Positions 7,431 through 28,648 of a stretch of DNA of 28,670 nt are shown here, piece by piece; position 1 is the first letter of the stretch; every line of letters starts with the position of its first letter. A model generated the notes under the pieces. The model saw only the letters and a list, made by a program, of their open reading frames with translations. It was not told the origin of the DNA and ran no database searches. The position numbers were made by a program, and so were the translations under genes. The stretch comes from a virus, in IMG/VR virus record IMGVR_UViG_3300031578_000257, positions 1-28,670 of that record; one strand, given 5' to 3'.

Positions 7431-7446
7431 CTAGTAACCAATTAAA
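7431..7446 (+). repeat. 16-bp element CTAGTAACCAATTAAA, copy 1
   Basis: An identical 16-base sequence occurs at 8097-8112. Both lie just before an ATG (11 bases upstream of 7458; 10 bases upstream of 8123). It is probably a 5' leader or promoter-downstream element shared by two transcription units. Confidence 0.6.
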
Positions 7447-7457
7447 CTAACATACAG

Positions 7458-7856: not shown

Positions 7857-7913
7857 AGAATGCTCCAGCAATTAACTTACTATAGATTTAATTGGTTTAA
7901 ATAAAAGCATTCT
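7857..7913 (+). terminator. two-tier hairpin downstream of mini-protein gene
   Basis: AGAATGCT (7857-7864) pairs with AGCATTCT (7906-7913), and inside it CAATTAA (7869-7875) pairs with TTAATTG (7888-7894). It closes the 7458-7850 unit. There is no T-run after it, so termination is not certain, and it could be a second small structured RNA next to the one at 7971-8088. The right arm of the inner stem contains a minus-strand AACCAATTAA. Confidence 0.5.
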
Positions 7914-7970
7914 GCAATAAATGGTGTGATGAATACTTCAGCACAAAATCTAAACTATACAATCAGAGAA

Positions 7971-8088
7971 AGATCCTTATGGATCAAACCCGGGAAGGTG
8001 CTCTGTCTCTCAGTAATGAGGTTGGTTCTAGATAGTATTCTGTTATGCACCACTAGCCTGTCTCCCGAAAGGGGGCAGGCACCTTCCC
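7971..8088 (+). ncRNA. compact structured RNA, candidate Y-RNA-like partner of DUF2828 protein
   Basis: A 10-bp perfect stem, GGGAAGGTGC (7992-8001) with GCACCTTCCC (8079-8088), closes a multi-arm junction. One arm is CTCA-GTAA-TGAG (8009-8020), with a GNRA loop. One is CTAG 8028-8031 with CTAG 8053-8056. One is CTGTCTCCC-GAAA-GGGGGCAG (8058-8078, one bulged T), again with a GNRA loop. A small GATCC/GGATC hairpin (7972-7985) precedes the core. The size of about 100 bases matches Y RNAs. It ends 34 bases before the ATG of the DUF2828 gene, so a cis-acting leader is the main alternative. Confidence 0.65.
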
Positions 8089-8096
8089 ACAATTAT

Positions 8097-8112
8097 CTAG
8101 TAACCAATTAAA
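8097..8112 (+). repeat. 16-bp element CTAGTAACCAATTAAA, copy 2
   Basis: Identical to 7431-7446, sited between the structured RNA and the ATG at 8123. Its AT-rich sequence may place the ribosome start site. Confidence 0.6.
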
Positions 8113-8122
8113 TCAAAATAAA

Positions 8123-9511
8123 ATGTCAAGATTAGTAAACGCAACAAGACAGTATGATAGTTTAACTGCTAATGGAGCTATCACACATTCAACAAGCCTA
8201 AACTATTGTTTAGACCTGTTTTTTCTAGCAGGTGCAAGTAGATATATGTCAGAATCTGATATTATACTTGCTTTTGACCGTGCACGCGCAGAGAATAAGA
8301 ACTTAGCTTATAAGATTTTATTCTGGGCTCGTGATGCAAGAGGTGGTGCAGGTGAGAAGAGATTCTTCCAAATAGTTATGGAACATATCAGTAAGATTCA
8401 TGCTTATGATTATGATCAGTTAGCTATATATATCCCTGAATTTGGATATTGGAAGGATGTATTCAAGATTGAGAATCCAAATGAGAATAATCTCAATTGG
8501 TTAAAGACTCAACTTGAAGAATCTCCTAATGCTAACCTCTTAGCTAAATGGTTTCCACGAAAAGGTAAATGGTTTGTAGCCATGCATCAGTATCTTAAGA
8601 TGACTCCCAAAGAGTTTCGTAAGAAATTGGTGTCAATGACCAAAGTAGTAGAAACTCAAATGTGTGCCAATGAATGGTCTGAGATTAATTACTCTCAGGT
8701 GCCTTCAATTGCTATGAACAAGTATAGACAAGCTTACTTTAACCGTGATGGTCAAAGATATGCTGAGTTTATACAAGATGTTCAAGATGGCAAGCAGAAG
8801 ATTAATGCATCAGTATTATTTCCTCATCAATTGTATCAAGCAATTAATAATGGAGATAATGCTAGTGCAGTAGAAGCTCAGTGGAATGCTTTGCCAAACT
8901 ACATGGCTGATAGTACTGAAAGGATTATTCCTTTATGTGATGTCAGTGGTAGTATGTCAGGCCTTCCTATGGATGTATCTGTATCTTTAGGGATTTATAT
9001 CTCTGAAAGAAATGAGGGTATATTCAAGGATGCATTCTTGACTTTCTCTGAAAATCCTCAAATGAATTACCTATCAGGTACTTTGTCTGAGAGAATGAGA
9101 CAGTTACAGAGAGCAGACTGGGGTATGTCTACTAATCTTCAAGCCACATTTGACTTGATTCTTAACAGTGCTGTTAGAGAGTCATTACCAGAAGATGAGA
9201 TGCCAACTAAATTACTTATCATTAGTGATATGGAGTTTAATGAGGCAACTTATCACTCAGGTACAAACCTAGATTCTATTAAAGCAAAGTATTCTGATGC
9301 AGGATACAAGATGCCTGAGATAGTATTCTGGAATGTAAATGGGAGACTTGGTAATGTTCCTGCATCTGCTAAAGATTCAGGCATTGGCTTGGTATCAGGT
9401 TTCAGCCCTTCAATTTTGAAGAGTGTGTTGCAAGGTGAAATTTATTCACCAGAGCAATTGATGCTTGATACTGTGGACACTGCGCGGTATTCCTGTATTG
9501 GAACTGAATAA
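8123..9511 (+). CDS. DUF2828 family protein, TROVE/Ro60-related with C-terminal VWA domain
   Basis: 462 residues. The N-terminal part has DUF2828 hallmarks: TANGAITHSTS (about 15-25), a helical repeat region, ARDARGGAGEKR (69-80) and YIPEFGYWKD. The C-terminal von Willebrand A domain has a full metal-ion site: DVSGSMSG from D273, WGMSTNLQ from W333 (the Thr of the site), and SDMEF at about 368. The closing IVFWNVNG and GLVSGFSPS motifs are also of the family. Ro60-type proteins are HEAT-repeat rings that bind Y RNA and misfolded RNA; DUF2828 is a remote relative whose biochemistry is little known. A structured RNA lies immediately upstream and a terminator immediately downstream, so the pair forms a self-contained unit. 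Confidence 0.88.
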   Translation: MSRLVNATRQYDSLTANGAITHSTSLNYCLDLFFLAGASRYMSESDIILAFDRARAENKNLAYKILFWARDARGGAGEKRFFQIVMEHISKIHAYDYDQLAIYIPEFGYWKDVFKIENPNENNLNWLKTQLEESPNANLLAKWFPRKGKWFVAMHQYLKMTPKEFRKKLVSMTKVVETQMCANEWSEINYSQVPSIAMNKYRQAYFNRDGQRYAEFIQDVQDGKQKINASVLFPHQLYQAINNGDNASAVEAQWNALPNYMADSTERIIPLCDVSGSMSGLPMDVSVSLGIYISERNEGIFKDAFLTFSENPQMNYLSGTLSERMRQLQRADWGMSTNLQATFDLILNSAVRESLPEDEMPTKLLIISDMEFNEATYHSGTNLDSIKAKYSDAGYKMPEIVFWNVNGRLGNVPASAKDSGIGLVSGFSPSILKSVLQGEIYSPEQLMLDTVDTARYSCIGTE

Positions 9512-9523
9512 GACTCGGGGTTT

Positions 9524-9555
9524 GACGGAACCTGGCAACAGAATCCGTCTTTTTT
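9524..9555 (+). terminator. intrinsic terminator after DUF2828 gene
   Basis: GACGGA (9524-9529) pairs with TCCGTC (9544-9549). Inside it CTG-GCAA-CAG forms a GNRA-capped upper stem. T6 follows at 9550-9555. Confidence 0.9.
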
Positions 9556-9989: not shown

Positions 9990-11126
9990 ATGGACAAAGT
10001 AGAGATATTTAACAATGTAGATGGTTACATTGCATCAGTTGAGTTCTTAAGTGGTACTCCTGAAATGCAAAGATTTAATTTCCATAGAGGCAAAGTTCAA
10101 CCTTTTCAATGTGCTCAAAGGAAAGAAACAGACACACATGTGTATTGGTCATATACCGAGGCTAAACCTAGGTTTGAAAACAATAGATTGTTCTATAGTA
10201 GAAACAATAAGTATGGTTTTACATATGATAAAGCCAAGAAAGATTTCAAATTCTGGTTTGGTAGAAGTATCCATGAAATTCCACCATTGATGTTGCATGA
10301 TGTTTTTAAACATTTCAATATTGATTGGTATGGCAATTTAAGTCCTTCACTTGCTAGTTTGCTTAATGCAACAATGGTTAAGAATATGATTAAAGGTAAG
10401 ATTACTAATCCTAGGGATTATGTAAAAGCTTATCTTAAGACTAGTCCTTATAGAAAGTCAGGAATTTCTCCTGAGTTATTTTATAAGACATTCAACACTG
10501 GAAATGTTCAATCTCCTAAATCTTATAGGAAGATTATTGAATATTCTACAGATGCTAATCATGCATTAGAATTTATTGCTGCTCAAAATAATAGTTATAT
10601 TAATCATACAATTACTGATTTGTATGATCAGGCAGCTGTTCTTGATAGAAGAGTAAATCCTAAATGGTCTGAGGCTAGAATGAAAGAAGTGCATGCTGAA
10701 TGGACTCGTGAAATTATGAGTGTTGAGGTTAAATCAATCCAACAACATGAGTATAATTATCCAGAAGTTGCTCTTCCAGATGGTCTTGAGATTATATCTA
10801 ATAACTATGAACTTTTTGAAGAAGGTACTACAATGAAACATTGTGTGTATACTAATTATGAAAGCAGAATCAGATCTAAAAAGTATTTTGCTTTTAGATA
10901 TGATAAAGATGGTATTAGAGCAACTCTTGGTGTGGATAAGTTTGATTCTAATAATGCTACATTCAGTCAGATGTATGGAATTGGTAATTCTCCTGTTCCT
11001 ATAGATATTTCTGATACTATGAAAGAGTTTATTAAGACTGATTACTTTCAGAAATGGTGTAATGAACAGTTTAATGCACTACCCTCAAGAGAGAGGGAAC
11101 CTGCAGATGCTGAATTTTGGTTATAA
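9990..11126 (+). CDS. PcfJ-like protein
   Basis: A 378-residue protein. The C-terminal 110 residues carry the PcfJ-like signature: a Gly-Leu-Glu-Ile-Ile strand, a Leu-x-x-Glu-Gly stretch, MKHCVYTNY (282-290), then a strand pair ending with Gln-Met-Tyr-Gly-Ile-Gly-Asn, equivalent to the QxxGxxN of the family. The N-terminal 200 residues are mixed alpha/beta with no known motif. PcfJ was named from an enterococcal conjugative plasmid and homologues are frequent in phages. The function is not known. It is flanked by terminators on both sides, so it is a single-gene transcription unit. Confidence 0.75.
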   Translation: MDKVEIFNNVDGYIASVEFLSGTPEMQRFNFHRGKVQPFQCAQRKETDTHVYWSYTEAKPRFENNRLFYSRNNKYGFTYDKAKKDFKFWFGRSIHEIPPLMLHDVFKHFNIDWYGNLSPSLASLLNATMVKNMIKGKITNPRDYVKAYLKTSPYRKSGISPELFYKTFNTGNVQSPKSYRKIIEYSTDANHALEFIAAQNNSYINHTITDLYDQAAVLDRRVNPKWSEARMKEVHAEWTREIMSVEVKSIQQHEYNYPEVALPDGLEIISNNYELFEEGTTMKHCVYTNYESRIRSKKYFAFRYDKDGIRATLGVDKFDSNNATFSQMYGIGNSPVPIDISDTMKEFIKTDYFQKWCNEQFNALPSREREPADAEFWL

Positions 11127-24344: not shown

Positions 24345-25325
24345 ATGATTTCAACAAAAGCAATAGTATCTGATGTAGTTGATGTACCTAGAGAATGGAT
24401 ATTTGAGTTTTATTTAAAATTAGATGAGAGATTATCTGGTCAAGACATAAAAATTAACTCAGCATTCAATCCTAGAGATAAAACTCCATCAATGTGTATT
24501 TATGTAGATGCAAGAGCAAATTATAGATACAAAGATTTTTCTTCTGGAAGAGGTGGTGATGCCTTAGATTTGGTTAAAGATTTATTTAATCTAGCTACTA
24601 GAGGTACAGCATCTTTTAAAGTAGTTCAAGACTACAATGAATATCTGACAAATAATAAGTATGTTCAAAACTATACTGTTAGATCTCAAGGAAGATATCA
24701 AATTACTGATTATGAAATGAGACACTGGACTAACTTTGATGAGAAGTACTGGACAGGACATAAAATTTCATCTAGTCAATTGCAAAAATATAATGTGATT
24801 CCTTTGGATCACTATATTCTTACAAGAGAGACTGATTTAAATGGAAATTATCCTCTGACAATAAAAACAAGATATCTATATGGTTATTTTAAAGAAGATG
24901 GTACTTTATACAAAGTCTATCAACCTAAATCAAAAGATAACAAGTTTCTGAAAGTTAGAGATTACATTCAAGGTAGTGAGCAATTAAATTATGATAAGTC
25001 TTATTTGCTAATTGTATCTTCACTTAAAGATCTTTTAGCAATAAATATGCTTGGCATAAAGGGTATTGAAGCTGTGGCTCCAGATAGTGAGAATATCATG
25101 ATTCCGGAAGTATTCATGCAAAATGCTTTCAAAAAGTATAAAAAAGTACTTGTCCTATTTGATAATGATGAAGCTGGTGTAGAATGTGCTAAGAGATATG
25201 AGAAAAAGTATGGTCTTACATGCATTAATTTCCTTCTTAGTAAAGATGTAGCAGATGCATTAAAAGATCATGGTATTGAAAAGACAAGAGCTGAGTTGTT
25301 TCCTTTATTAAAACAAGCATTATGA
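24345..25325 (+). CDS. TOPRIM DNA primase (DnaG-like), short form
   Basis: A 326-residue protein. The N-terminal catalytic region has NSAFNPRDKTPSM and YRYKDFSSGRGGDALDLV (about 38-80), seen in phage DnaG relatives. The TOPRIM domain has LLIVSSLKD (S225 at the place usually held by the catalytic Glu) and LFDNDEAG (D273, D275), with LSKDVADALKDHG near the end. No N-terminal Cys zinc finger is present. It would make RNA primers with the DnaB-like helicase. The Glu-to-Ser position is unusual. Confidence 0.83.
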   Translation: MISTKAIVSDVVDVPREWIFEFYLKLDERLSGQDIKINSAFNPRDKTPSMCIYVDARANYRYKDFSSGRGGDALDLVKDLFNLATRGTASFKVVQDYNEYLTNNKYVQNYTVRSQGRYQITDYEMRHWTNFDEKYWTGHKISSSQLQKYNVIPLDHYILTRETDLNGNYPLTIKTRYLYGYFKEDGTLYKVYQPKSKDNKFLKVRDYIQGSEQLNYDKSYLLIVSSLKDLLAINMLGIKGIEAVAPDSENIMIPEVFMQNAFKKYKKVLVLFDNDEAGVECAKRYEKKYGLTCINFLLSKDVADALKDHGIEKTRAELFPLLKQAL

Positions 25326-25747
25326 GTTGGATTTATAAGAGTAAGCAGTTTGATGAATCTTGTATTCCGGAGGGATCTGTGGGATTTATCTATCATATGT
25401 CTGTAATATTAAATGGCAATACTTATGCTTATATAGGTAAAAAGAATTTCTTTTCTAATGTAAAGAAGAAACTTGGTAAAAAAGCTTTAGCCCTTGTTAC
25501 TGATAAGAGACTAAAGAAATATACTAGAGATATCAAACCTAGTTTTATGAATTACTATAGTAGTAATCAACAACTAAAAGAAGCTCACAAAGCAGGTTTA
25601 ATTATTAAAAGAGAGATTTTAATGATTTGTTATTCTGCTACAGAATTAACTTATCAGGAAGTAAAGCACCAGTTTAAATATGAAGTGCTTGAAAAAGAAA
25701 ATTATTTAAATGCCAATATTCTTGGCAGATTTTACAAAACTAAATAA
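25322..25747 (+). CDS. GIY-YIG-type nuclease-like protein
   Basis: A 141-residue protein. GFIYHM (21-26), YIGKKNF (37-43, the YIG part), and the C-terminal ELTYQEVKHQFKYEVL plus NANILGRFYK, with Glu and Asn in the order of the GIY-YIG superfamily. Phage homologues are homing-type or repair nucleases. The start overlaps the stop of the primase gene by 4 bases. GIY is replaced by GFIY, a known variant form of that motif. Confidence 0.65.
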   Translation: MSWIYKSKQFDESCIPEGSVGFIYHMSVILNGNTYAYIGKKNFFSNVKKKLGKKALALVTDKRLKKYTRDIKPSFMNYYSSNQQLKEAHKAGLIIKREILMICYSATELTYQEVKHQFKYEVLEKENYLNANILGRFYKTK

Positions 25748-26018: not shown

Positions 26019-26423
26019 ATGACAGAAAATGAAATGACAGGCCTTCTTCTTAAGTTGGCTGACCTTGGTGTTACTGGAATTAAAGTAAAATATGATGGTG
26101 GAGGAGACTCCGGTGCCATAGAATGGATTGGATATACAAATAAACCTTGTGAAACTCCAGAAGATGTAGATGATGATGTGGAAGATTGGGGATATGAATG
26201 GAAGTTATCAAAAATTTCTGCAGATGCATATACTGCAATTGAAGAATTTGCTCAAAACAAACTTCTTGATAAAATAGAAGATTGGTGGAATAATGAAGGT
26301 GGTTGGGGAGAGTTATCTATATGTGTTCCTTCAGGTAAGTATATCATCAATAATCATATAAGAATTACTGAAAGTGAAGATTACTTTCATGATGGTAGTT
26401 TGTTAGATAAAGCAGATGAGTAA
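26019..26423 (+). CDS. DUF6878-like protein
   Basis: A 134-residue acidic protein containing GIKVKYDGGGDSGAIEWI (about 20-37), a GDSG-type motif as in DUF6878 proteins, followed by VDDDVEDWGYEW, an EEFAQNKLLDKIEDWWN helix, then GGWGELSICVPSGKYIINN. Family role unknown. The stop shares a base with the next start (TAATG at 26421-26425). Confidence 0.55.
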   Translation: MTENEMTGLLLKLADLGVTGIKVKYDGGGDSGAIEWIGYTNKPCETPEDVDDDVEDWGYEWKLSKISADAYTAIEEFAQNKLLDKIEDWWNNEGGWGELSICVPSGKYIINNHIRITESEDYFHDGSLLDKADE

Positions 26424-26608
26424 TGACTGAAAAACAAAAAGCAGATGAAATGTATGCTTATGCAAGTAAGTTACATGGTCCTGAAAAAGCTAAAGAAGAA
26501 GCATTAAAATCTGCAACAGCAACTTATTCATTAGCACCATATAAAGATGGTAGAATGATGGCTAGAAGTTATTGGGAAAGAGTAATTGAACATTTAAAAA
26601 AGAAGTAA
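26423..26608 (+). CDS. small helical hypothetical protein
   Basis: A 61-residue protein, mostly two helices (TEKQKADEMYAYASKLHGPEKA; RSYWERVIEHLKKK) with no membrane segment. It is bounded by TAATG junctions on both sides, so it is a genuine member of the tight series 26019-28648. Function unknown. Confidence 0.6.
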   Translation: MTEKQKADEMYAYASKLHGPEKAKEEALKSATATYSLAPYKDGRMMARSYWERVIEHLKKK

Positions 26609-26949
26609 TGGCACATCCTTGGCAACATGCAGTATCCTCTGCTAGAAAATTTGGAGGATCTCCTGTAGATTATTTAGAAATCCATCAATGGTTTGATGAA
26701 ACTAAAGCATGGATTGGGCATAGTAAACATAGGATATTCCGTCACCACAGTGAAGGAATATTTGAATGTGAGAAAAGATTTGGTATGACTATTACTAACT
26801 CTGATGGAAAAGATGTATATGTAAGATATGTAGGAGAACAACATGTCAAAGAGGATTGTAATAATTACATTCCTACAGCAAAAGAATGGGTGGATAATAT
26901 AAATACACCGACAGAATGGATGATTAAAACTTTAAAAATGGAGGACTGA
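26608..26949 (+). CDS. DUF6915-like protein
   Basis: A 113-residue protein with the phrases HPWQHAVSSARKFGGSP (3-19), DYLEIHQWFDETKA, HRIFRHHSEGIFECE and TITNSDGKDVYVRYVGEQHV (about 61-80), which match my recollection of the DUF6915 family (histidine-rich, with FRHHSEGIF). No function is known for it. The many His and acidic residues could bind metal. TAATG junction with the preceding gene. Confidence 0.65.
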   Translation: MAHPWQHAVSSARKFGGSPVDYLEIHQWFDETKAWIGHSKHRIFRHHSEGIFECEKRFGMTITNSDGKDVYVRYVGEQHVKEDCNNYIPTAKEWVDNINTPTEWMIKTLKMED

Positions 26950-27344
26950 TGGAAAAAGCTGCTTTTAATAAAGAAGAAACAAGGAATTTACTAAATATGT
27001 TACAATCTCCTGATGAAGAGAATCATATTATAGTTTTTGAAGCATTAAAAAATGCTGATTTATCAAATTATTTTGGTGAATTAATGGTATTATACAAGTT
27101 TTCTAAACTTGGTAGTGACAAATGGACTAAAAACTGTAAAAAAGTTTATAGTCTTATTGAAGAACACACTAATGGAAAAACTCTAACAAGTGCTAACTGT
27201 CTTGGTATCATGACAAACGCTAGATCTACTAAAGAATCTATTGAATTGTTTATGGAATATTTTGTAAGAGATATGACAGGATTTTTAGGGCAAATGGGAT
27301 ATCCCACAGAAAAATTTGAAATTGAAATTAAACTTAAAGACTAA
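26949..27344 (+). CDS. hypothetical protein
   Basis: A 131-residue helical protein (EETRNLLNMLQSPDEENH; ELMVLYKFSKLG) with a final strand (KFEIEIKLKD). Pattern of repeated helices is HEAT-like in spacing, but that is only an impression. It starts and ends with one-base overlaps and precedes the metallopeptidase/VWA gene, so a role with that protein is possible. Confidence 0.55.
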   Translation: MEKAAFNKEETRNLLNMLQSPDEENHIIVFEALKNADLSNYFGELMVLYKFSKLGSDKWTKNCKKVYSLIEEHTNGKTLTSANCLGIMTNARSTKESIELFMEYFVRDMTGFLGQMGYPTEKFEIEIKLKD

Positions 27345-28648
27345 TGGATAAAGTACAAAGCTTAAGTAAAACAAGCAAAGACTTGATGTTAAGAGAGCCC
27401 TATTATGGGTTCTTTCTTCTCATGTTAAATAAATTATGGGACAGTAAAAGAGTTCCTACAGCAGGTGTAAGTAAGAATGGTATTAATTATCAGTTAGCCA
27501 TAAATGAAGATTTTTGGATGAGTCTTACTGAAGACCAAAAACTTGGTTTATTAAAACATGAGTTATTACATATTGCATTTGGACATCTTACTATGTTTTT
27601 TAAATTCACAGATAGAAGACTTGCTAATGTTGCAATGGACATGGAAATCAATCAATATATTGATAGAGACTGGTTGCCAGGTGGTGAATATAGCAAAGAA
27701 GAGTTTGATGAAATAAAAGAAGCTGCTAAAATTGAAATAGCTGCTGCAAGAGAAAGAGATGCTCCTATGGAAGAACTAAAAGCTATTGCTGATAAAGTAC
27801 CTTCTAGAGGCATCATGATTGAAGATTATGATGATGTACAACTTGATACAAAAGCTGGTTGTAGGTATTACTATGACAAGCTTAAGAAACTTCAAGATGA
27901 AAAGAAGCAGAACGGAACCTGTGGTTCTCCATCAATGGATGATTTATTAGATTCTATTGATGAAGGTGATATTCCTGATCATAGTACATGGGAAGAGTTT
28001 GAAAACATGACTGAAGCTGAGCACAAACTAATTGAAAAACAATTGCAGAAAGTTTTAAGTGATGCTAAAGAACAAACTATTAAAAAGCGTGGTACTGTTC
28101 CAGGTGAAATTGAAGGTGTTATTATAATAGAAAACATTGTACCACCTAAATTTGACTGGAGAGGCTTTATTAGAAGATTTACTGGTGTAAGTACAAAAGT
28201 ATTTACTAAGAAGATCAGAAGGAAGGAAAACCGTAGATTTGATGCTAATCCTGGTCTTAAAGTAAAGATGAGACAGCATATGCTTCTTGCTATAGATACT
28301 TCAGGATCTGTAAGTGACAATGAACTTAAAGAGTTTATGTCAGAAATGCATCATATTTATAAATGTGGTGTAGATATTACTATTGTACAGTGTGATACTA
28401 AAATCAATTCTATTGAACCTTACAAGGGTAAATTTGAAATGACTGTAATAGGAAGAGGTGGGACTGAATTTGATCCCGTCCTAAATTATTTTAATGAAAA
28501 CCTAAAGAAATATACTAGCCTGGTGTATTTTACTGATGGTGAATGTTATACAGATGTAAAACCTAAAGGAAATATTCTTTGGGTCTTGTCAGAACAATCA
28601 TCTATGAATGATAGTTTACCGGGCAAAGTAATTAAGTTAGAACTATAA
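27344..28648 (+). CDS. DUF2201-like metallopeptidase/VWA protein
   Basis: 434 residues in two parts. The N-terminal part has a zinc-peptidase motif HELLHIAFGH (72-81) followed by a helical insert. The C-terminal part is a VWA-like domain, with DTSGSVSD (from D318) as the metal-ion site and GRGGTEFDP (about 371-379) supplying the Thr. Proteins of this form usually sit next to a MoxR-type AAA ATPase and are thought to act as ATPase-linked chaperone or activation factors. The next gene starts at 28659, beyond which the window ends, so the partner may be there. Confidence 0.85.
   Translation: MDKVQSLSKTSKDLMLREPYYGFFLLMLNKLWDSKRVPTAGVSKNGINYQLAINEDFWMSLTEDQKLGLLKHELLHIAFGHLTMFFKFTDRRLANVAMDMEINQYIDRDWLPGGEYSKEEFDEIKEAAKIEIAAARERDAPMEELKAIADKVPSRGIMIEDYDDVQLDTKAGCRYYYDKLKKLQDEKKQNGTCGSPSMDDLLDSIDEGDIPDHSTWEEFENMTEAEHKLIEKQLQKVLSDAKEQTIKKRGTVPGEIEGVIIIENIVPPKFDWRGFIRRFTGVSTKVFTKKIRRKENRRFDANPGLKVKMRQHMLLAIDTSGSVSDNELKEFMSEMHHIYKCGVDITIVQCDTKINSIEPYKGKFEMTVIGRGGTEFDPVLNYFNENLKKYTSLVYFTDGECYTDVKPKGNILWVLSEQSSMNDSLPGKVIKLEL

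Follow-up and report, generated by a model that had tools for sequence, protein, structure and literature searches.

A 28.7-kb viral fragment (IMG/VR record IMGVR_UViG_3300031578_000257, positions 1-28,670; this whole stretch is called the window) appears to encode a second, DUF2828-type Ro-Y ribonucleoprotein (RNP) system. Its predicted components are a DUF2828 protein with the fold of Ro60 and small hairpin RNAs with a CAGCAA core, which are encoded beside the gene. The probability of this reading is put at about 0.72. Its computed basis is the protein fold, the RNA family, linkage, covariation, and co-occurrence, and from these RNA binding and function are inferred. A preliminary description of the window had proposed a phage RNP of the Ro60-Y RNA kind, formed by the DUF2828 protein and a structured RNA directly upstream of its gene. 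The features concerned are the following.

7857-7915, plus strand: CAGCAA hairpin RNA 1, with stem AGAATGCT (7857-7864) / AGCATTCT (7906-7913), CAGCAA at 7866-7871, and a tail G at 7914.
7930-8043, plus strand: CAGCA hairpin RNA 2, with stem GAATACT (7931-7937) / AGTATTC (8034-8040), CAGCAC at 7939-7944, a large structured loop, and the tail UG.
7985-8095, plus strand: GC-rich RNA, with helices P1 (7992-8001 with 8079-8088), P2 (8009-8020), and P3 (8056-8065 with 8071-8080); P1 crosses the stem of hairpin RNA 2.
8123-9511, plus strand: DUF2828/DUF7788 (phrog_850) protein with a predicted Ro60 fold, consisting of a helical-repeat ring and a VWA domain with its metal site intact.

The DUF2828 protein

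The window DUF2828 protein is predicted to have a full-length Ro60 fold. The open reading frame (ORF) at 8123-9511 encodes 462 amino acids, and its product matches DUF7788 (E 4e-50) and DUF2828 (E 6e-32, 111 bits against a curated cut-off of 29) in Pfam as well as phrog_850, labeled "RNA-binding protein" (E 6.6e-140). DUF7788 and DUF2828 are the only Pfam matches at E<=0.1; TROVE (PF05731) is not matched and no nuclease domain is found in the Pfam search. A phmmer search of the PDB sequences also finds no relative. The likeness to Ro60 is thus missed by sequence searches and is seen by fold comparison only. An AlphaFold2 model was built from 27 relatives and has a predicted local distance difference test score (pLDDT) of 85. 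When it is compared with the PDB by Foldseek, Ro60 or TROVE entries take all of the first five places. The ten highest-ranking matches by VIA-align are also Ro60/TROVE entries (Z 14.5-20.5 over 380-404 residues); Z is 20.5 over 404 residues for Xenopus Ro with RNA (1yvp) and 14.5 for Deinococcus Rsr, and 2nvo is in the top matches. The residues of the VWA metal-ion site DxSxS...T...D (D273, S275, S277, T337, and D369) are invariant across 27 diverse relatives. The Ro60-like two-part design with an intact metal site, as first read from the sequence, is therefore borne out, with Z about 20 to Xenopus Ro and all five site residues invariant.

DUF2828, a domain of unknown function, is widespread; 673 phage records contain it, including Felix O1, Listeria P100, and mycobacteriophage LeBron. 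The predicted fold and the candidate RNA partner family described below make its function testable in standard laboratory systems.

A family of CAGCAA hairpins

The CAGCAA hairpins are an undescribed and unnamed RNA family, and they look like RNA partners of the DUF2828 protein, for which they are candidates. Each has a stem of 7-10 bp with variable sequence, 0-4 nucleotides (nt), the core CAGCAA at 9-11 nt from the start of the 5' arm, a variable loop, the 3' arm, and a G; the unpaired stretch is (U/A)NCAGCAA. The stem sequences differ freely yet remain paired, while the core is constant. The flanks of distant DUF2828 genes (38-52% protein identity) lack the GC-rich RNA of the window, and most have one to eight of these hairpins. 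They occur in arrays upstream of the gene, downstream of it, or far off. In the window there is one copy just upstream of the GC-rich RNA and another overlapping it. This candidate general partner class had not been noticed in the preliminary description. Its view of the system as a phage one was also too narrow, since the pair of DUF2828 and hairpin is found in bacterial and archaeal contigs, although some of the bacterial contigs may be prophages.

Evidence for the family that does not depend on a choice of rows with stems comes from word counts and from a covariance model. In 44 viral DUF2828 loci a stem arm precedes 51 of 73 CAGCAA words, compared with a mean of 1.7 for permuted words, and the highest-scoring permuted words overlap CAGCAA. 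A second set consisted of 75 non-redundant upstream regions of bacterial and archaeal DUF2828 genes that were never used for training. Here CAGCAA follows a stem arm in 146 of 193 cases on the gene strand and in 2 of 17 on the opposite strand, and permuted words give 1.6. Of the 146 hairpins, 118 have a spacing of exactly 10 between the start of the stem and the core, and 123 are followed by a G.

The covariance model of the family, R2, has 27 rows, which come from viral loci only. MAFFT had misplaced the 3' arm in some of 38 hairpins, and 11 rows were excluded; several of these were later recovered as held-out members. Among 80 bacterial and archaeal loci R2 finds 145 matches, of which 144 are on the gene strand and nearly all are upstream of the DUF2828 gene. 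It finds nothing above 19 bits in a control of 691 kb of arbitrary viral DNA. Hairpin RNA 1 scores 41.4 bits, though it is itself one of the training rows.

The hairpins and DUF2828 also occur together at the level of whole genomes. The R2 search finds hairpins in 21 of 25 viral records with DUF2828 and in none of the phages T4, T5, SPO1, phiKZ, and K, which lack the gene. Among 25 arbitrary viral contigs only one (G015) has hairpins, and it is the sole contig with a strong phrog_850 protein (514 bits), encoded 45 kb from them. Two others (G014 and G032) encode Ro-like (TROVE-like) proteins that are less closely related, of which that of G014 also matches TROVE, and they have no hairpins. When the genomes that supplied R2 training rows are left out, hairpins are present in 11 of 15 viral genomes with DUF2828 and in 0 of 29 without it (P 2e-7). 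Cellular genomes show the same association. Seven of 100 Ruminococcaceae genomes carry DUF2828, and R2 at E<=0.01, a rough value as are all its E-values, matches six of the 100; in five of the six DUF2828 is present and the hairpins lie beside the gene (P 2e-6). At E<1e-3 the five genomes matched are all among the seven, and in the other two, weaker matches of 20.6 and 23.8 bits lie close to the gene.

The GC-rich RNA

The RNA upstream of the DUF2828 gene forms a conserved structure that is limited to the clade of the window. As first described, it has about 100 bases, a perfect 10-bp closing stem (P1), and two GNRA-capped arms. The arms are present at 8009-8020 with a GUAA loop and at 8056-8080 with a GAAA loop. 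Its predicted fold is better than those of 200 out of 200 shuffled sequences (z -3.5 for 111 nt and -4.4 for 158 nt). Sixteen distinct versions keep the three helices, with 98.4% of cells paired, and six pairs show changes on both sides, with 0 of 500 shuffles as good; homologous loci thus have the compensatory changes expected of a real structure. A DUF2828 gene lies downstream of every non-coding copy with enough flanking sequence, and the proteins of these genes are 71-97% identical to that of the window. A link between structured RNA and DUF2828 therefore holds, through the GC-rich RNA in this clade and more widely through the CAGCAA hairpins.

Other parts of the original proposal have to be revised. 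No copies were found in other phages searched with the model of this RNA (R1), and the matches are confined to the window's clade. The fold at 7985-8095 was therefore rejected as a general DUF2828 partner: it is missing beside most DUF2828 genes, and neither it nor the hairpins of the window match the Y RNA model YrlA (RF02553) at E<=1. A loose DNA pattern for this RNA gave mostly chance matches, which were reused as arbitrary viral controls. The fold itself is real at 7985-8095, but these limits leave out the start, near 7930, of the CAGCA hairpin that it overlaps. The invariant core of the GC-rich RNA, AGUAUUC-UG (8034-8042), is the 3' arm of hairpin RNA 2, and in the loci examined a 5' arm (A)GAATAC(T) with CAGCAC is found 66-87 nt upstream. 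In the window the script had preferred the arm at 7857; the matching one at 7931-7937 was identified by inspection of the sequence and its alignment. Because P1 and the stem of hairpin RNA 2 cross, the two are either mutually exclusive or part of a pseudoknot.

The GC-rich RNA may instead be a purely cis-acting leader of the DUF2828 mRNA, riboswitch-like or autoregulatory, and not a partner RNA. This is a serious alternative, though not the favored one. It fits with the occurrence of the RNA upstream of the gene and on its strand, once per genome within the clade apart from a weak second match in one record, and with the conservation of two competing pairings, in which strand b (8056-8063) pairs with c in 99% of cells or with linker a in 94.5%. 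The position of the 3' end would also switch the fold: hairpin RNA 2 alone (7930-8043) closes on itself at -26 kcal/mol, while in 7930-8095 the P1/P3 fold prevails at -51 kcal/mol. However, at two loci (L128 and L199) a small ORF separates the RNA from the DUF2828 gene, so that a simple leader does not fit every locus. In addition, its core belongs to the CAGCA family, whose members elsewhere are not leaders: they form arrays, follow the gene, or lie far from it.

Relationship to Y RNAs and tRNAs

Some of the hairpins carry tRNA-like modules that resemble those of bacterial Y RNAs. Two CAGCAA hairpins, one at locus L037 and one in mycobacteriophage LeBron, have in their loop a circularly permuted tRNA module that matches YrlA (RF02553) with about 40 bits. 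These scores are under the gathering score of 69, so membership in that family is not reached. The suspected Y RNA kinship beside DUF2828 nevertheless has a basis, as these tRNA-like matches adjoin related genes. A T-arm word is present in the loop of 24 of 154 bacterial hairpins, and its overall rate in those loci is 0.13 per kb. The DUF2828 system is like the bacterial Rsr and YrlA pairs of Deinococcus and Salmonella in its Ro60 fold, in RNA genes that adjoin the protein gene, and in the tRNA-like module of some of the RNAs. It differs from Rsr in that the DUF2828/DUF7788 protein has no Pfam TROVE match. It differs from YrlA in the CAGCAA core, which is absent from the RF02553 consensus, and in that many hairpins have only 50-70 nt and no tRNA module.

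The reverse arrangement was observed at L039 (4514-4629 and 5348-5467) and L054 (4645-4764). Here tRNA-like genes have an anticodon loop with a large insert that holds a CAGCA hairpin. As a side reading, these may be chimeras of tRNA and Y RNA.

The hairpins could also be processing or termination signals of tRNA and mRNA operons that are near DUF2828 genes only because these are located in tRNA clusters. DUF2828 genes do adjoin tRNAs in Felix O1 and in Enterococcus, Rhizobium, and Listeria phages, and the inserts at L039 and L054 place a CAGCA hairpin within a tRNA. T4 and T5 are tRNA-rich phages, but they lack DUF2828 and also lack the hairpins. In bacterial loci the arrays are upstream of the gene, the genome-level co-occurrence persists at a distance (G015), and the hairpins inspected are followed by G and A/T/C and not by a T run. 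Operon signals are thus an unlikely explanation.

Relationship to Dictyostelium Class I RNAs

The CAGCAA hairpins resemble the Class I RNAs of Dictyostelium, from which the Rfam model RF01414 was built. Published work describes Class I RNAs as restricted to dictyostelids and as having a conserved 11-nt motif and stems with compensatory changes (PMC7919456). The two groups share a short variable stem joining the ends, a conserved motif that has CAGCAA at its end and directly follows the 5' arm, a variable loop, and a length of about 60 nt. The features of Class I RNAs are found in the hairpins, namely the short stem with compensatory changes, CAGCAA beside the 5' arm, and a length of about 60 nt. 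A difference is that Class I RNAs bind Rnp1A, a protein with an RNA recognition motif (PMC7919456).

RF01414 selects the same sites as R2 on whole phage genomes. Its top match in the window is hairpin RNA 1 (7858-7914; 20.1 bits, E 0.005). In Aeromonas phage LAh_6 there are nine matches at E<=1, eight of them in an array near the DUF2828 gene, and the best has 29.8 bits (E 6e-5 per genome). The best relative is at the archaeal locus L223, with 32.4 bits. Among 30 controls, RF01414 at E<=0.05 matches only the DUF2828 carrier G015 and one site in T4, which is inside gene 31.2 and was taken as a chance match. Formal membership in RF01414 fails because no element passes the gathering score of 41.5 (20.1 bits in the window, 32.4 in the best relative). 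The argument for kinship is therefore the common layout and the recovery by an independently made model. The hairpins are the first candidate relatives of Class I RNAs outside Dictyostelia. More tentatively, and with less confidence than doubt, DUF2828 and CAGCAA RNAs may be a second ancient branch of Ro-Y RNPs, of which Class I RNAs would be the eukaryotic members and a DUF2828-like protein their missing candidate partner.

Other phage Ro proteins and Listeria phage CKA15

Another phage-encoded Ro60 is that of Thermus phage phiLo (9l5y), which aligns with the model with Z 16.6 over 386 residues but is only 15% identical to the window DUF2828 protein. A literature search found no publication on it. 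In a 2025 study of Listeria phage CKA15, the DUF2828 family protein CKA15_055 was found in virions, and abundant non-coding reads near CKA15_055 led the authors to suggest Rsr and Y RNAs (PMC12282133). No RNA motif or family was described in that study. The highest read counts were in an apparently non-coding region at 26236-26727 of OR088597.1 (L423) (PMC12282133). This stretch, which is part of the tRNA region upstream of the DUF2828 gene, is not a CAGCAA hairpin and has the look of a long unnamed RNA. An equation of the three abundant CKA15 RNAs with the three hairpins was rejected, as the one region with stated coordinates lies elsewhere and the other two were not located in the text.

Proposed function

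Several observations weigh against a general partnership of hairpins and DUF2828 protein. Four of the 25 viral genomes with DUF2828 have no R2 match at E<=0.01. A distance of tens of kb or more separates the hairpins from the gene in Erwinia and Ochrobactrum phages and in G015. The count of stem covariation is not independent evidence, because rows were chosen for having stems, and hairpin RNA 2 has little covariation of its own because its stem hardly varies within the clade. In CKA15 the hairpin array (25,289-25,553) is apart from the abundant region (26,236-26,727).

The DUF2828-type Ro-Y system is still the preferred reading, and a mechanism can be suggested by analogy. Rsr and YrlA have been proposed to form an RNP that selects, stores, or hands over RNA (cited in PMC12282133). 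The DUF2828 protein would be a Ro60-fold ring, with partner RNAs encoded in tandem beside its gene or elsewhere in the genome. The stem and CAGCAA may be the module that the ring recognizes, and the hypervariable loop an exchangeable effector module for docking other factors, tRNA-like in some copies as in YrlA. As with Rsr and YrlA, the RNA could gate or tether the ring and so steer damaged or misfolded RNAs that are held or passed to a nuclease. During phage infection the system would probably act on tRNA and other RNA. In the window's clade, hairpin RNA 2 may be closed when made alone and give way to the P1/P3 fold if transcription continues to 8095; through this alternative the 5' leader may sense free protein and provide autoregulation. 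If the reading is correct, Ro-Y RNPs extend past TROVE proteins and YrlA RNAs, and unexplained small RNAs adjoining DUF2828 genes gain a rationale.

Two further uses of the hairpins can be considered. The hypervariable loops could be guides that pair with target RNAs, with the Ro-like ring as an RNA-guided effector. The constant frame, the strongly variable loops, and the several different copies per genome would suit such a role, but the tRNA-like module in some loops favors effector docking and the DUF2828 protein lacks a nuclease domain in the Pfam search, which makes guides very improbable. Arrays of stem sites with a short conserved core and a variable middle would also suit attC-like DNA recombination sites spread with the cassette. 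Such sites are the least probable reading of all, since the near-absolute strand bias relative to the gene (144 of 145), the tRNA-like loop modules, and the likeness to an expressed amoeba RNA class point to RNA.

Other features of the locus

Two small elements flank the DUF2828 gene.

8100-8114, plus strand: GTAACCAATTAAATC, conserved between the RNA and the start codon; its clade form is TAGTAACCAATTAA.
9512-9549, plus strand: clade-specific H-type pseudoknot (CGGGGUUUGACGGAACCUGGCAACAGAAUCCGUC) followed by a T run; it abuts the DUF2828 stop codon.

An element of the TAGTAACCAATTAA type is also present at 7435-7450 and ahead of other genes of the window phage, 10-25 nt before start codons, and is a candidate promoter-like or initiation element. 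The pseudoknot resembles the end of the alpha-proteobacterial transfer-messenger RNA (tmRNA) model RF01849 (E 2e-5, 30.1 bits; gathering score 50). In alpha-proteobacterial tmRNA a similar pseudoknot seems to come after the tag stop codon. Identity as a tmRNA was rejected, because most of the model is skipped and only a short part is aligned, and ARAGORN finds no tmRNA. Outside the window's clade the motif search gave mostly chance words.

One gene 3' of the DUF2828 gene, 9990-11126 encodes a PcfJ-like protein (24 bits, just below the Pfam cut-off of 25). A second VWA protein in the window, at 27344-28648, is a DUF2201 metallopeptidase-VWA, a type of protein that has been described as partnering MoxR in jumbo phages (PMC7824862). 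Finally, a phage close to that of the window (L013) has a Pistol ribozyme match at 2116-2184, about 0.8 kb upstream of its DUF2828 gene, with a score of 42.8 bits that is above the gathering score.
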